The notes: generated by a model not told the origin, from the sequence alone. DNA of 32,917 nt from Phycisphaerales bacterium (GCA_020847545.1 JADLBV010000044.1:1-32917), one strand, 5' to 3'; counted from the stretch's first letter, positions 9,692 to 14,967 are shown. Numbers and translations: made by a program.

Positions 9692-10510
9692 TTAATCCTC
9701 ATCCACCCGCTGATACTTGAAGACCGCCCGATACAACCCCGACACCTCTTGTGCCTCCACCGTGCGCGGGGGATATTTTTCGTTTCTGGGCTGCAACCTC
9801 AGCACCGAATTCCCACCCTCATCGGATTCAAAAAAGACCCGCTTGAACGTCGTCTGCCCATCGCCAAACCGCACGAAGCAATCATCCCCATTGCGCACCG
9901 TCGTCCCCGGCGAAAAAACCACGATGTCCCCCGCGCGATACTTGGGACACATCGAATCCCCATGCACCCGCGCCCCGAACGCCTGGTCATCATGCAAATC
10001 CGGGCAGGAGACATAATCATCCGCCACGCCGCGCGGATAAGACAAATCCGTAAAATCCCTCGGATACCCCGCCGACACCTTGTTGATGATCGGCACCGCA
10101 TTCGTTGTCACATGCTCGATGTTGCCGGCCGAACGGTCCACAAATTCCTGCAAAGCCCCCGATAAATACGCATCATCCAGATTCACCGACTCGGCCCCCG
10201 ACTTTTTTGGCTCAACGACCCTGACCTCACCCTCCGGCTTCTGTTGCGCCAATAATTTCTGCAACACCGCCCGCACATCCCTCGGCGTGCGCTGAAGATG
10301 CGCCTGCGTCAACAATTGCCCCGGCACAAACGCCAACGACTGCTCCAGCTTCCTCAACTTTTCATCACTGGGTGGATTGGGAACCCGACCGGTCTCAATC
10401 AACGACAAATAAGGCTTCGATATCCCCGTCCGCCCCGCCAGTTCATCCAACGTCAACCCCAACCGACGCCTCTGCCGACGAAGTTGTATCCCAAGCCCTT
10501 CCATCATCAT
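9692..10510 (-). CDS. CI/LexA-type repressor: XRE helix-turn-helix plus S24 self-cleaving domain
   Basis: The 272-residue protein joins an XRE-type DNA-binding domain (LGLTLDELAGRTGISKPYLS, residues 17-36) to a LexA/CI-like S24 peptidase domain. The parts of the latch are present at family-like spacing: the Ala147-Gly148 cleavage site (VSAGYP), Ser186 (HGDSMCPKYRAGD) and Lys223 (TFKRVF). Such repressors cut themselves when RecA filaments form after DNA damage, releasing their operators. It is transcribed away from the gene run at 10776-14967 and shares a control region with it, as in phage immunity regions. Its ribosome binding site (GGGAGGAG) is the end of the repeat at 10514-10609. Three ATG codons in a row start the frame; the exact one is uncertain. 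Confidence 0.9.
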   Translation of the reverse strand: MMMEGLGIQLRRQRRRLGLTLDELAGRTGISKPYLSLIETGRVPNPPSDEKLRKLEQSLAFVPGQLLTQAHLQRTPRDVRAVLQKLLAQQKPEGEVRVVEPKKSGAESVNLDDAYLSGALQEFVDRSAGNIEHVTTNAVPIINKVSAGYPRDFTDLSYPRGVADDYVSCPDLHDDQAFGARVHGDSMCPKYRAGDIVVFSPGTTVRNGDDCFVRFGDGQTTFKRVFFESDEGGNSVLRLQPRNEKYPPRTVEAQEVSGLYRAVFKYQRVDED

Positions 10511-10513
10511 CTC

Positions 10514-10609
10514 CTCCCTCTCCCTGACTTCGACAAGCTCCCTTCGGGTCTGAGCCTCAGGGTCGAAGACAGTCGAGCCGTACCCCGGAGAGGGGCAGGG
10601 GAGAGGGTT
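10514..10609. repeat. Interspersed palindromic repeat, family B (short copy)
   Basis: This copy matches the left half of 6212-6387 closely: CCCTCTCCCTGACTTCG, then the CTTCGGGTCTGAGCCTCAGG core, then GGGTCGAAGACAGTCGA and a G-rich end. The right half of the long copy is missing. On the minus strand it ends in GGGAGAGGGAGGAG, which serves as the ribosome binding site of the repressor gene at 9692-10510. Confidence 0.8.
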
Positions 10610-10643
10610 TTAGCAACTTTATTTAACAGCTCCAATACACTAA

Positions 10644-10672
10644 TAAATACACGCTTCCAAAAAATAAATCAA
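10644..10672 (-). promoter_or_regulatory. Promoter for the S24 repressor gene
   Basis: On the minus strand TTGATT (10672-10667) is followed after 17 bases by TATTTA (10649-10644). The region is strongly A/T-rich compared with its surroundings. The leader would run through the family B repeat before the start codon at 10510. Confidence 0.5.
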
Positions 10673-10681
10673 GAAAAATAC

Positions 10682-10709
10682 TTGACATTTCCCTAACATG
10701 GTATATTCT
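10682..10709 (+). promoter_or_regulatory. Promoter for the terminase-module genes
   Basis: A perfect TTGACA (10682-10687) is followed after 16 bases by TATTCT (10704-10709). It would give a leader of about 60 bases before ATG 10776. The next two genes follow closely, and the module may be one transcript. Confidence 0.6.
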
Positions 10710-10715
10710 AAGGAA
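10689..10715. promoter_or_regulatory. Candidate repressor operator over the -10 region
   Basis: TTCCCTA, 13 bases, then TAAGGAA form an inverted repeat with seven-base arms and one mismatch. It is centred on the -10 hexamer of the plus-strand promoter, where a bound dimer would block transcription. A second, shorter dyad (GTTTA, 8 bases, TAAAC) lies just downstream at 10719-10736. The divergent CI-like protein is the natural candidate to bind these, which is inference. Confidence 0.45.
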
Positions 10716-10775
10716 GTAGTTTAGCGGCTATTAAACACGCCGCCATCAGTTCCTCCGGTCGAATGGGAAGCGGCC

Positions 10776-11186
10776 ATGTCCATCCTCGAAGAAATCTCCG
10801 AAAATCCTCGAACCTCCTCCTTTTCCTCACACCATCTCCTCGACCGCATCCGCTATCTGGACGAGGCCGACCAGATGCTTTTCACCCTCATCAAACAGGG
10901 CACGGTCAGCCTTCGCCAAATCTCCCGCCTGACCGGCATCCACGGCGGCACGCTCTCCCGCCGGGTCCATCGACTCGCCAACCGCCTCCACGATCCGGTC
11001 GTGGCCTCACTCATCGACCACGGAAAAGCCCTTCGTCAGGAACACCGCCAACTTGGAATTGAACATTTTCTGCACGGCAAAAGCATCACCCAACTCGCTG
11101 AACTGCATCAAATGACCCGCCGGGAAGTCGCCCGCATCCTGACCTTCCTGCGCGGCTGGTCACGCGGAATCACCATGCGCGGCTGA
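10776..11186 (+). CDS. Helix-turn-helix protein at head of the terminase module
   Basis: The 136-residue protein has two apparent helix-turn-helix segments: VSLRQISRLTGIHGGTLSRR in the middle and ITQLAELHQMTRREVARIL near the C-terminus. The pattern resembles sigma factor region 3/4 or a terminase small subunit DNA-binding domain, and no exact family can be named. Its place upstream of a terminase large subunit makes a DNA-recognition role likely, either as a regulator or as the site-binding partner of the terminase. The start has a weak GGGAAG upstream. It is the first gene after the divergent promoter. Confidence 0.65.
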   Translation: MSILEEISENPRTSSFSSHHLLDRIRYLDEADQMLFTLIKQGTVSLRQISRLTGIHGGTLSRRVHRLANRLHDPVVASLIDHGKALRQEHRQLGIEHFLHGKSITQLAELHQMTRREVARILTFLRGWSRGITMRG

Positions 11187-11214
11187 AGCCCATCCACTCA
11201 AAAAGGGGTAAATC

Positions 11215-11826
11215 ATGTCCAACACAACACTTGCATCCGACCATGCGCAACGAATCCGTTGCTGGTTCGATCTTTCTTCCAACCCTCCGATTCGATTTCC
11301 CGATTACGAATCAGACCCACCCCAGCCCGGCCAACTCCATCTCATCACCGGGCCATCCGGCTCTGGGAAATCCCTCCTCCTGCGCCGACTTCGACGACGC
11401 TGGCATCGCGAATTTTCCATTTACGACCTGGATGCGACCAAACTTCCGCGATCTCCCACCATCGAATGCTTTTCCCAACTTCATCTTGAAGATGCACTGC
11501 ATCTGCTCTCCCGCGTCGGCCTGGCCGAGGCGCACACATGGATTTTGCCGACCCATCATCTCAGCCAGGGTCAACAATGGCGATTGAAACTGGCTATTGC
11601 CTTGATGAATCTCCGCAACGCCAGTCGCCCGGCCATTTTATTCGCCGATGAATTTGCCGGCTGTCTGGATCCCCTGACCGCCCGAATCATCTCCCACACC
11701 CTGCGCCGACAAGTTCACACCTTCAATCTTCGCGTCCTGATCGCCACCTCACGCAATGACCTGTTGAACGCCTTGCAACCGGACCATGTCACCCAATGCG
11801 ACTTTGGCACATTTGTCCCGCAATGA
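11215..11826 (+). CDS. Small ABC-type ATPase, like the ATPase half of COG2401
   Basis: The 203-residue protein is a single soluble ABC ATPase domain with no membrane partner nearby. Walker A is GPSGSGKS (46-53), the signature LSQGQQWRLKLAIAL (116-130), Walker B ILFADE (141-146) and the D-loop LDPLTAR (151-157). The usual switch histidine after the D-loop is replaced: the segment reads IATSRND (177-182 region), with Arg where His is expected. The ADEFAGCLD and TARIIS segments recall COG2401, an ABC ATPase fused to an acetyltransferase; here the acetyltransferase is the next gene, 22 bases away. The cellular role of this family is unknown. The absence of a transporter points to a DNA- or RNA-related role. 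Confidence 0.78.
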   Translation: MSNTTLASDHAQRIRCWFDLSSNPPIRFPDYESDPPQPGQLHLITGPSGSGKSLLLRRLRRRWHREFSIYDLDATKLPRSPTIECFSQLHLEDALHLLSRVGLAEAHTWILPTHHLSQGQQWRLKLAIALMNLRNASRPAILFADEFAGCLDPLTARIISHTLRRQVHTFNLRVLIATSRNDLLNALQPDHVTQCDFGTFVPQ

Positions 11827-11848
11827 ACTCGCCAACAAGGAGAATCCC

Positions 11849-12511
11849 ATGCAACCGCGCCCATTCCTCCCCGGCCAATTCACCATCGAACCGGGCACAC
11901 GAATCGATTATTTCAACCTGCATCGTTTTCATTACTGCTTCAAGCCCCCCGCGACATTCAATGCCATCCGGGCAATACGGTATGACGAAACAAACTCGAC
12001 CCGTCGGCTCGCCGGCGTCGCGGTGGTTTCATGGCCCGCGCCGTGCAATCTTGGCCGACAAATCTATTTCCGCACGCGCGATTCCCCCTTTGGACAGAGA
12101 TTGCATTGGATCAACCAACATCTGCGAACCATCAGCCGGATCATCATCCACCCGCAATTTCGCGGCATCGGGCTGGCAACCGATCTCGTACAACACATTC
12201 TGACCACCAACACCACGCGATTCATCGAAGCCACCTCCAAAATGGCCGCCATTCATCCCTTTTTCGAGCGCGCCGGCATGAGACGCGTGCCCTTGCGCGA
12301 CAACGAAGTCGCCTACTTCATTTTTGACCAATTCAATGGGGGAAATCATGACCAGCTCGTCAACCGAATCCATCGACCTGTGGCAACCCTGCTCAAATCC
12401 GCAGATGCTGCGTCAATGGATCGATCAGCATCTGAACCTGCGCCTGCCGGCACACAACATCTGCCCGGATCACCAGTCGCCGATGCAATATCTGATCCAA
12501 TCCTACTTTGA
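11849..12511 (+). CDS. GNAT-family N-acetyltransferase, like the other half of COG2401
   Basis: The 220-residue protein has a GNAT fold: strand TISRIIIHPQFRGIGLATDL (94-113), with the acetyl-CoA-binding RGIGLA loop, and a C-terminal IHPFFERAGMRR (135-146). Both motifs fit the acetyltransferase domain of COG2401. AAGGAG at 11837-11842 fixes the start at 11849. The fold should end near residue 160; the last 60 residues overlap the terminase start by 164 bases in another frame and look like low-complexity read-through, so they may not be functional. The substrate is unknown. It could modify a protein of the module or a small molecule. Confidence 0.78.
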   Translation: MQPRPFLPGQFTIEPGTRIDYFNLHRFHYCFKPPATFNAIRAIRYDETNSTRRLAGVAVVSWPAPCNLGRQIYFRTRDSPFGQRLHWINQHLRTISRIIIHPQFRGIGLATDLVQHILTTNTTRFIEATSKMAAIHPFFERAGMRRVPLRDNEVAYFIFDQFNGGNHDQLVNRIHRPVATLLKSADAASMDRSASEPAPAGTQHLPGSPVADAISDPILL

Positions 12512-13787
12512 ACCTGCCGCCGACCTGGTCGTCTGGGCGCCGCGAGGCGGAGGCAAAACCCGCTTGGGCGCCGTCGCCACACTACTCGATTTGTTTCACA
12601 AGCCCGGATGCTCAATCCGCATCCTGGGCGGGTCATTGGAACAAAGTTACAAAATGTGGGACCACCTGCTGCCCGATGTTCAGCGCCTGGCGGCTAATCA
12701 ACTCACCACCCGCGGCAATGCCAAACGATTTCGCCTCGAAAACGGCTCCGAAGCCTCGGTCCTGACCCAAAGCGAGCGTGCCGTTCGTGGCGTGCGCGTG
12801 CAAAAAGTCCGCTGCGACGAGGTGGAATTGTTTCGCCCCGAAGTCTGGGAAGCCGCCCAACTGGTCACGCGCAGCCACACACCCGCCGATGGTGAGACAG
12901 GCGTCGAAATTCGCGGTGTGATCGAAGCCTTTTCCACCTGGCACCGCGTCGGCGGCATGATGCAGCAGATCGTCGAATCGGCCCGCAAACGATGCACCAC
13001 CATCATCAAATGGTGCCTGCTGGAAGTCCTGCAGCGCTGCCCGACTGAACGATCGTGCGAGTCATGCCCGCTGTGGGATGAATGCCGTGGAATCGCCAAA
13101 ACCCGCTGCGACGGCTTCATCAGCATCGACGACGCCATCCGCATGAAACAGCGCGTCTCACAGGAAGTCTGGGAGGCCGAAATGCTCTGCAAACGCCCCA
13201 GCAGGCGCAACGCGGTCTTCGCGGCGTTCAATGCCGAACAGCACATCCGCGAGCAGATGCCGGACATCACCTCATCCGCGGAAGCATGGCTTGCGATGGA
13301 TTTCGGGTTCGTCAATCCGTTTGTCTGCCTGTGGATTATCAAGCTCGATGAGGTGACGTATGTTCTGGATGAATATGTTCAGGAACAGCGCACGATGCAG
13401 GAGCATCTGGAGCAGATCAAGGCCCATTCGTGGAAAAGAGTTCGCCGAATCGCGTGTGACCCGGCCGGTTCGGGGCGAAACGAGCAGACCGCCGTATCGA
13501 ATGTGCAGATGTTGCGTGCCGCCGGTTACACGGTGCGGTTTCGCGGCAGCCGGATTGTCGAAGGGATCGAGATGATCCGCGCCGCCTTGCGGCCGGCCGC
13601 CGGCAAACCGACCTTGTTTGTGCATCCGCGCTGCGCGCGGTTGATTGAGGCTTTGCGCAACTATCGTTATGGCGAACAATCCAGCGAATTGCCCCTGAAG
13701 GATGGAATTCATGACCACCCGATCGACGCCTTGCGGTATTATTTCGTCAACAGCCGGCGCGCCGAACCGCCGCCAAGGTCGTATTGA
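12348..13787 (+). CDS. Phage-type terminase large subunit
   Basis: The 479-residue protein has the two domains of a DNA-packaging motor. The ATPase carries a Walker A variant APRGGGKT (64-71) and Walker B with Asp157-Glu158 (VRCDE). The C-terminal RNase H-like nuclease has acidic residues at Asp318 (AMDFGF), Asp371 (ACDPAG) and Asp460 (HPIDALRYY). Between them lies a cysteine cluster (Cys231, 237, 240, 246 and 254) that may bind zinc or an iron-sulfur centre. In phages this enzyme cuts concatemeric DNA and pumps it into a capsid through a portal; no portal, capsid or protease gene is nearby. The start at 12348 has GGGGGA upstream and overlaps the GNAT gene. Length and motifs look intact, not decayed. 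Confidence 0.85.
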   Translation: MTSSSTESIDLWQPCSNPQMLRQWIDQHLNLRLPAHNICPDHQSPMQYLIQSYFEPAADLVVWAPRGGGKTRLGAVATLLDLFHKPGCSIRILGGSLEQSYKMWDHLLPDVQRLAANQLTTRGNAKRFRLENGSEASVLTQSERAVRGVRVQKVRCDEVELFRPEVWEAAQLVTRSHTPADGETGVEIRGVIEAFSTWHRVGGMMQQIVESARKRCTTIIKWCLLEVLQRCPTERSCESCPLWDECRGIAKTRCDGFISIDDAIRMKQRVSQEVWEAEMLCKRPSRRNAVFAAFNAEQHIREQMPDITSSAEAWLAMDFGFVNPFVCLWIIKLDEVTYVLDEYVQEQRTMQEHLEQIKAHSWKRVRRIACDPAGSGRNEQTAVSNVQMLRAAGYTVRFRGSRIVEGIEMIRAALRPAAGKPTLFVHPRCARLIEALRNYRYGEQSSELPLKDGIHDHPIDALRYYFVNSRRAEPPPRSY

Positions 13788-13844
13788 TGATTTTCACCTG
13801 ATCCTGCCGATGAAAACGAAGCTGCCGCAATCCGCCGCAAGACC

Positions 13845-14117
13845 ATGCAGGCCACGGGACCACATTGTCCGTTTCTCAACCGTTCCGATGAGCGGTGCGG
13901 CGATCATTTTCGGTTGGACCACCTGCATCATGCGTACAAATATTGCTTCGACCGCTACGCCGCCTGCCCGGTTTATCTCGAACTGCTGGTGGAACGACGG
14001 GTGCGCCGAAATACGTCCACGGGGGTGAGCCATGAACCCCAAATCACCCCCGTCCAGGTCACGGTCCGCCGTCGAAACCACCAACCGCTCGCCGCGGGCG
14101 CGCCCGTTTCTGCTTGA
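13845..14117 (+). CDS. Small Cys-rich protein between terminase and recombinase
   Basis: The 90-residue frame holds a compact Cys/His-rich domain: CPFLNRSDERC, then LDHLHHAYKYCFDRYAACPVY. Four cysteines and nearby histidines suggest a small metal-binding domain, reminiscent of bacterial CPFLG...YC...CP proteins of unknown role. The reading frame is the same as that of the terminase, after two stop codons, and the codons before the first ATG (reading DENEAAAIRRKT) also look protein-like, so the true start may be non-standard or further upstream. No ribosome binding site is visible. The last 28 codons overlap the recombinase gene. An alternative frame at 13702-14028 reads as noise. Confidence 0.5.
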   Translation: MQATGPHCPFLNRSDERCGDHFRLDHLHHAYKYCFDRYAACPVYLELLVERRVRRNTSTGVSHEPQITPVQVTVRRRNHQPLAAGAPVSA

Positions 14118-14967
14118 ACTGGCCTCCGAACGGGGGCTGGCGGACAATTCCATCCACGCCTATCGACGCGACCTCGAAGACCTCGACCGCTTTCTGGAAT
14201 CGCGCGGCAAGAATCTTGAAAACGCCGATGTGGACGACTATCGCGGCTATCTTCAGAATCAGACCCGTCTTCACAAAAGCACCCGCACGGTTGCCCGGCG
14301 GCTGGCGGCCATCCGCGTCTTTTTGCGATTCCTCGCCTCCCAGGGACAAGACACGACGCCGATCCTTCAGCAGTTGGAACGCCCCAAACCCGAACGATCC
14401 TTGCCCAAAATCCTCAGCCGCGCCCAGGTCAACCAGCTCATCGGCGCGCCCAATCCCAAATCGATGCTCTTCGCGCGTGATGTGGCGATTCTGGAGTTGC
14501 TCTACGCCAGCGGCCTGCGCGCCAGCGAACTGTGCGACCTGAACCTGCGCGATGTCAACCTGACGGTTGGTTGCGTGCGCGTGCTGGGCAAGGGGGCCAA
14601 GGAGCGCATCGTCCCCCTTGGCCGGGCGGCGGCCGAGGCGATGGGACGATACCTGCTGGATTGTCGCCCGAAACTGGAAAAATCCCCGGCCGAGCGGGTT
14701 TTTCTCTCCCGCACCGGCAAGCCGATGGAGCGGGTGGGGTTGTGGATGCTGGTCGAAAAATATGGCCGATCCAGCGGACTGCTCAATGATGTCTCCCCCC
14801 ACGTCCTGCGTCATTGTTTCGCCACCCACCTGCTGGGGGGCGGCGCGGACCTGCGCATCGTTCAGGAACTGCTGGGCCACAGCGACATCAGCACCACGCA
14901 AATCTACACCCACGTCGACCAATCTCGATTGAAATCGATCCACCAGAAATACCACCCGCGACGTTGA
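14032..14967 (+). CDS. XerD-type tyrosine recombinase
   Basis: The 311-residue protein has an N-terminal core-binding domain (from about 24) and a tyrosine recombinase catalytic domain with the full active site: Arg163 (ASGLRASEL), Lys187 (GKGAKER), His257 and Arg260 (PHVLRHCFATHLL), His283 (LGHSDIST) and Tyr292 (IYTHVD). It would cut and rejoin DNA at a paired site. The pattern is closest to XerC/XerD, which resolve chromosome dimers at dif, but a phage or element integrase of this type is also possible. About 24 basic, Ser-rich residues precede the usual start. GGGGGTGAG upstream supports 14032. It is the last gene of the run starting at 10776. Confidence 0.9.
   Translation: MNPKSPPSRSRSAVETTNRSPRARPFLLELASERGLADNSIHAYRRDLEDLDRFLESRGKNLENADVDDYRGYLQNQTRLHKSTRTVARRLAAIRVFLRFLASQGQDTTPILQQLERPKPERSLPKILSRAQVNQLIGAPNPKSMLFARDVAILELLYASGLRASELCDLNLRDVNLTVGCVRVLGKGAKERIVPLGRAAAEAMGRYLLDCRPKLEKSPAERVFLSRTGKPMERVGLWMLVEKYGRSSGLLNDVSPHVLRHCFATHLLGGGADLRIVQELLGHSDISTTQIYTHVDQSRLKSIHQKYHPRR

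Follow-up and report, generated by a model that had tools for sequence, protein, structure and literature searches.

A repressor faces a terminase operon in a planctomycete genome

We analyzed a window of 32,917 nucleotides that spans contig C55 of a draft planctomycete genome from end to end (Phycisphaerales bacterium, GCA_020847545.1). Positions 9692–13787 hold a module in which the gene of an S24 repressor is divergent from an operon encoding a helix-turn-helix (HTH) protein, an ABC-type ATPase, a GNAT acetyltransferase-like protein, and the large subunit of a phage-type terminase (TerL). All module frames are intact in the window and in G001, the sister genome from the same genus. A sequence-only reading of the window had described six genes facing the repressor: the HTH, ABC, GNAT, and TerL genes belong there, while a cysteine-rich open reading frame (ORF) and an XerD-type recombinase gene do not (see below).

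The repressor gene (9692–10510, minus strand) matches Pfam and PHROG profiles and combines an XRE-type HTH domain (HTH_31, E = 6e-12) with a LexA/CI-type Peptidase_S24 domain (E = 2e-18). Among 10 relatives, the Ala147-Gly148 cleavage site and the catalytic Lys223 are invariant and Ser186 is almost invariant. With its HTH domain, Ala-Gly site, and Ser/Lys dyad, the protein has the sequence hallmarks of CI/LexA-type repressors and is predicted to cleave itself, as previously claimed; the cleavage would be triggered by RecA.

The operon has a sigma-70-like promoter (TTGACA-N16-TATTCT, 10682–10709, plus strand, 10 of 12 matches) that is kept in the sister genome. The promoter spacer contains a candidate operator, TCCCTAACA (10690–10698, plus strand), a copy with one mismatch of the class consensus TACCWAACA. 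In the window genus and in G010, this motif lies between the -35 and -10 elements. Exact copies were found in 9 of 20 S24/HTH intergenic regions (mean 0.09 and maximum 2 in 200 shuffles). Because the motif was selected after inspecting the same sequences in which it was counted, we consider it a candidate operator only. A search of the promoter for exact palindromes gave no clear common dyad.

All four operon genes lie on the plus strand. The first (10776–11186) encodes a double-HTH DNA-binding protein with weak HTH/sigma-r4 matches, and members of its family (A3) occupy the operon-start position in most loci of the class Phycisphaerae. The ABC ATPase (11215–11826; phrog_11143, E = 5e-24) retains Walker A, LSxGQ, and Walker B and has no transmembrane partner. 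The GNAT protein (11849–12511; phrog_886, E = 4e-12) retains the R-x-x-G acetyl-CoA motif. TerL is encoded at 12348–13787 (Terminase_6C, 4e-10; phrog_2, 4e-17), so that the GNAT and TerL frames overlap by ~160 nt (12348–12511), as they do in the window genus. Neither TerL nor GNAT matched a PADLOC defence model, and the ABC protein matched mad3 (4e-12) over part of the profile only.

TerL has the two domains of its family, a P-loop ATPase with Walker A and B and an RNase-H-like nuclease with an acidic triad. Across 23 relatives, the Walker A and B motifs and the acidic residues of the nuclease do not vary, which bears out the earlier statement that the terminase keeps its catalytic residues, and the predicted model (pLDDT 89) matches the solved folds of the D6E, T4, and HK97 terminases. 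From this family knowledge, the module would be expected to cut and move DNA. A four-cysteine motif, C-x5-C-x2-C-x5-C (Cys4; 13038–13085, plus strand), lies between the ATPase and nuclease domains. Its four cysteines are invariant in the alignment of TerL relatives. It is present in 54 of 55 class TerLs, the remaining one being a spacing variant; neither the phage relatives examined nor the two full-length TerLs found outside the class have it. The motif may be a metal or Fe-S site; we take it to resemble the Fe-S loop of EndoIII/MutY.

The module recurs across the Phycisphaerae

At a loose cut-off, TerL matched in 43 of 61 relatives, the weakest being matches to the nuclease domain only. Across the phylum, 392 genomes were sampled, 41 of them from the class Phycisphaerae; full-length TerL orthologues were present in 30 of these 41, mostly as single copies. 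Overall, about two thirds of the class genomes sampled have a TerL orthologue, and these genomes span at least 14 families. Outside the class, only two genomes of the sample had a full-length TerL; the other matches were to the nuclease domain.

Profiles run over 55 class loci revealed a recurrent, fuller order, S24 / HTH-ABC-GNAT-ParB-TerS-TerL. GNAT was found on the same stretch as TerL in 44 of these loci, TerS in 29, and ParB in 18 (the gene content of GC-rich loci was taken from profile searches); the TerS-like gene of locus L039, for example, matched phrog_2538 at 8e-8. Because the same gene order recurs across the class, the arrangement is far beyond chance. The window module is a reduced form, S24 / HTH-ABC-GNAT-TerL, with ParB and TerS not nearby, and it sits at the same chromosomal place in both members of the window genus (the window genome and G001). 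In G051 and G057, ABC and GNAT form a single open frame. The HTH-ABC-GNAT trio of G012 and G056 is intact but lies far from TerL.

The terminase is inherited vertically, under selection, and together with GNAT

We compared TerL and RpoB trees of 26 genomes. The two trees have 11 of 23 splits in common, versus at most 3 in 5000 permutations, and the TerL and RpoB distances are correlated (Mantel r 0.60, reached by no permutation). Supported conflicts were limited to short branches within the window's own family. Between the window and G001, no module gene contains a stop, and the ratios of nonsynonymous to synonymous substitution (dN/dS) were 0.10 for S24, 0.112 for TerL, 0.12 for HTH, 0.235 for ABC, and 0.277 for GNAT. 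The open frames are thus as intact as had been noted, with dN/dS of about 0.1–0.28, and the description of the locus as a phage-derived, repressor-controlled terminase module holds, the module being intact and under selection. Gene transfer agents (GTAs) likewise consist of phage genes that are passed on vertically and kept by selection. Frameshifted terminase genes in close relatives had been named as a finding that would refute the sequence-only reading: the close relative has no frameshift, and a distant one, G236, has an in-frame stop. This TerL (L319, G236:C33) is split by a TAA codon and may be a recent pseudogene or an assembly error.

Retention and loss of TerL and GNAT go together: 34 genomes have both, 14 have neither, and 6 are discordant (34/1/5/14, Fisher odds ratio 95). 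TerL was gained or lost at least 7 times on the tree used, and of 5 phylogenetically independent pairs, 4.3 changed in the same direction for both genes (median p 0.125). The association holds even in genomes in which the two genes are unlinked. Of the five genomes with GNAT but no TerL, four have frames of ~500 residues, the fused ABC-GNAT form. These fusions (G027, locus L210; G045; G053; G059) are apparently independent of TerL.

Phage relatives, and a genus with head genes attached

A search of IMG/VR recovered no close viral relative of TerL (best identity 26%). The nearest arrangements we found are in SSU5-like phage-plasmids, Nickievirus, and RHph_X66, in which the order is ParB-(ParB)-ABC-GNAT-DNA-binding-TerL-portal-capsid. 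The module's own profiles detect ABC, GNAT, and TerL in SSU5, RHph_X66, and nickie, so the ABC-GNAT-(DNA-binding protein)-TerL order and ParB are common to phages and module and the proteins are homologous by profile, at ~20–29% identity. GNAT and TerL matches also coincide in the Rhizobium phages RHph_X66, B1VFA, and V1VFA-S, in the Stenotrophomonas phages ANB28 and BUCTxx99, and in the E. coli phage CMS-2020a. The phages, however, continue into portal and capsid genes and have no Cys4 motif, whereas the class module is chromosomal, vertical, S24-controlled, and without head genes. The ABC and GNAT proteins of the phrog_11143 ABC-GNAT family are likewise homologous to those of the window, but the window pair consists of separate genes tied to TerL. 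The COG2401 ABC-ATPase/acetyltransferase fusions are presumably kin of the same pair.

One class genus, g27 (family f6; G030 and G039), is the only one in which portal, scaffold, and capsid genes are attached to the module (portal phrog_145, 1e-31; scaffold phrog_206, 5e-17; N4-gp56 capsid phrog_1357, 2e-47). The capsid scores above the TIGR04387 cut-off. The G030 and G039 head clusters are colinear and their recognised head proteins are 69–90% identical. No recognisable tail gene was found in the g27 cluster, which in G030 ends at ordinary chromosomal genes. The g27 loci (L216/L296 at G030:C3 and L304 at G039:C136) read ABC-GNAT-ParB-TerS-TerL-portal-x-scaffold-N4-type capsid, a candidate GTA or reduced prophage. 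The joined portal, scaffold, and capsid genes of g27 point most clearly to the block having arrived within a larger cluster of packaging and head genes.

No conserved capsid partner is found elsewhere

The module has neither a portal nor a capsid gene next to it in the window, in agreement with the sequence-only reading. We wondered whether a partner is encoded elsewhere and searched with five profiles, a set that is not exhaustive (PF05065, PF04860, phrog_212, phrog_145, and phrog_1357). The HK97 capsid PF05065 occurred in 7 of 27 genomes and the portal PF04860 in 4 of 27, never on the TerL contig. phrog_212 gave a weak match in 1 of 30 genomes, inside a separate prophage of G008, phrog_145 matched in 2 of 30, and phrog_1357 in 3 of 80. 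The near-closed genomes G028, G037, G041, and G054 had zero matches to the five profiles, which found no linked head-gene partner outside g27. As judged from these profiles, the capsid and portal distribution argues against a conserved particle.

Two candidate partners were rejected. The HK97 capsids of G000 (C44) and G001 (C61) are mutually unrelated. The SSU5-type capsid match in G008 comes from a separate prophage that has a TerL of its own on that contig. This prophage-like region (L289, G008:C106:20000-39500) also has a portal-like gene, and the solitary module TerL of G008 is ~10 kb away. The G001 region (L291, G001:C61:44000-63000) is an integrated island with an integrase-like gene, a large primase-like ORF, and the HK97-type capsid, possibly a capsid-bearing satellite.

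The module ends at TerL and is flanked by housekeeping genes

The small cysteine-rich ORF (13845–14117) has no family match. The recombinase (14032–14967) passes the TIGR02225 (NCBI XerD) cut-off, its XerC partner is encoded on contig C73, and it adjoins the module, as does the ORF, only in the window genus (G001). We conclude that it is the ordinary chromosome-dimer resolution enzyme. Both genes were therefore excluded as module parts, the module ends at 13787, and the earlier suggestion that the module recombines DNA falls. The ORF overlaps XerD in another frame; before the overlap it is 92% identical to the sister genome.

Upstream of the module lie genes for trigger factor, a histidyl-tRNA-synthetase-like protein, and alcohol dehydrogenase; downstream are GH57, M48 protease, and NADH-dehydrogenase-like genes. 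The flanks are common to the window and G001 downstream and immediately upstream.

Discussion

The anatomy, descent, and phage origin of the module are well supported. We read it as an ancient, captured phage packaging-initiation module that is maintained by its host and now serves it without a capsid of its own, and we give this reading a probability of about 0.55. An ancestor of the Phycisphaerae would have captured a tailed-phage block of HTH, ABC, GNAT, ParB, TerS, and TerL under a CI/LexA-type S24 repressor, and the portal, scaffold, and capsid genes once joined to it would have been lost or unlinked in nearly all lineages. S24 would repress the operon from sites in the operon promoter; its self-cleavage, presumably upon RecA activation, would allow the operon to be expressed. 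The DNA-binding proteins, with help from the ABC/GNAT pair, would then load TerL onto DNA, and the loaded TerL would cut and translocate DNA using ATP. Lacking its own portal, the module should not produce a virion, and its likeliest use would be to process DNA for the benefit of the host during stress or infection. The module is probably stress-induced; the earlier term "damage-inducible" would follow from cleavage of the repressor. We infer the induction, the DNA targets, portal-free translocation, and the benefit to the host. The more specific proposal of a cellular, capsid-independent Cys4 terminase, loaded by ParB/HTH/TerS and ABC-GNAT switched by S24, and serving the host in defence, repair, or the release of DNA, is tentative, and we place it somewhat below even odds.

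Several observations weigh against reading the module as one that serves its host without a capsid. The g27 loci show that it can sit in a head-gene cluster, and virion proteins diverge fast, so that unlinked head genes could be missed with five profiles. The divergent S24 gene adjoins the TerL block in just 22 of 55 class loci, and neither TerS nor ParB was found beside the window TerL, where the neighbourhood only was examined. The five strongly supported pairs, finally, cannot alone reach significance for the co-loss of TerL and GNAT.

The main rival, which we consider unlikely, is a class-wide GTA particle for which the module does the packaging and whose head and tail genes are dispersed or too diverged to recognise, g27 retaining the ancestral joined form. 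Vertical descent broken by repeated losses, and control by S24, are GTA-like, and in G030 and G039 the block runs colinearly into portal, scaffold, and N4-gp56-type capsid genes. RcGTA itself was derived from a headful-packaging phage (PMC7947584), and RcGTA-type GTAs are, like the module, host-inherited phage packaging genes with an intact TerL. However, no portal, capsid, or tail gene is linked to the module in the window or in most of the class, and the TerL lineage and gene set differ from those of RcGTA. In a GTA, portal and capsid would be expected to match TerL roughly in conservation, yet the five profiles reveal no linked or class-wide partner and conserved head genes are found, in part, only in g27, whose cluster has no recognisable tail genes; the HK97 capsids of the same-genus G000 and G001 are unrelated islands. 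It is improbable that the module instead acts in helper-dependent piracy or anti-phage defence, a host terminase docking on the portals of infecting or resident phages to package host DNA into foreign capsids or block the phage. Complete packaging initiators without a capsid do recall satellite strategies, some TerL-positive genomes hold capsid-bearing prophages and islands, and satellites of the phage-inducible chromosomal island (PICI) type also have packaging genes without a full virion set. But satellites are mobile with integrases, whereas the module is vertical, integrase-free, at the same place in both genus members, and has a full TerL rather than TerS alone; many TerL-positive genomes, moreover, have no HK97-type capsid or portal.

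The sequence-only reading had named a decaying prophage as the main alternative. Every part of the module does have phage homologues, and the G236 TerL has an in-frame stop. Decay is nevertheless contradicted because the TerL tree follows RpoB and dN/dS is 0.11, and the catalytic residues are invariant. Recurrent acquisition of similar phages fares no better: IMG/VR holds no close relative, and the phage relatives examined have no Cys4 motif. Nor does the locus look like a complete prophage, since portal, capsid, and tail genes are absent from the window, the recombinase is a housekeeping XerD, and homologous loci have head genes attached in one genus only rather than always lying in full prophages. 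We consider a prophage remnant, or repeated acquisition of similar phages, very improbable.

Terminases are known as virion-filling motors. A literature search found nothing on a capsid-less terminase, whether from Phycisphaerae or domesticated. Because cells retain or lose the ABC/GNAT pair along with TerL, the pair, which is also that of T5/SSU5-type phages, is linked to DNA packaging. The genus g27, with portal and capsid still attached, makes the question directly testable. A host-inherited, capsid-less terminase under selection would be either part of a class-wide GTA with a scattered or unrecognised shell, or a new cellular use of a viral DNA motor.

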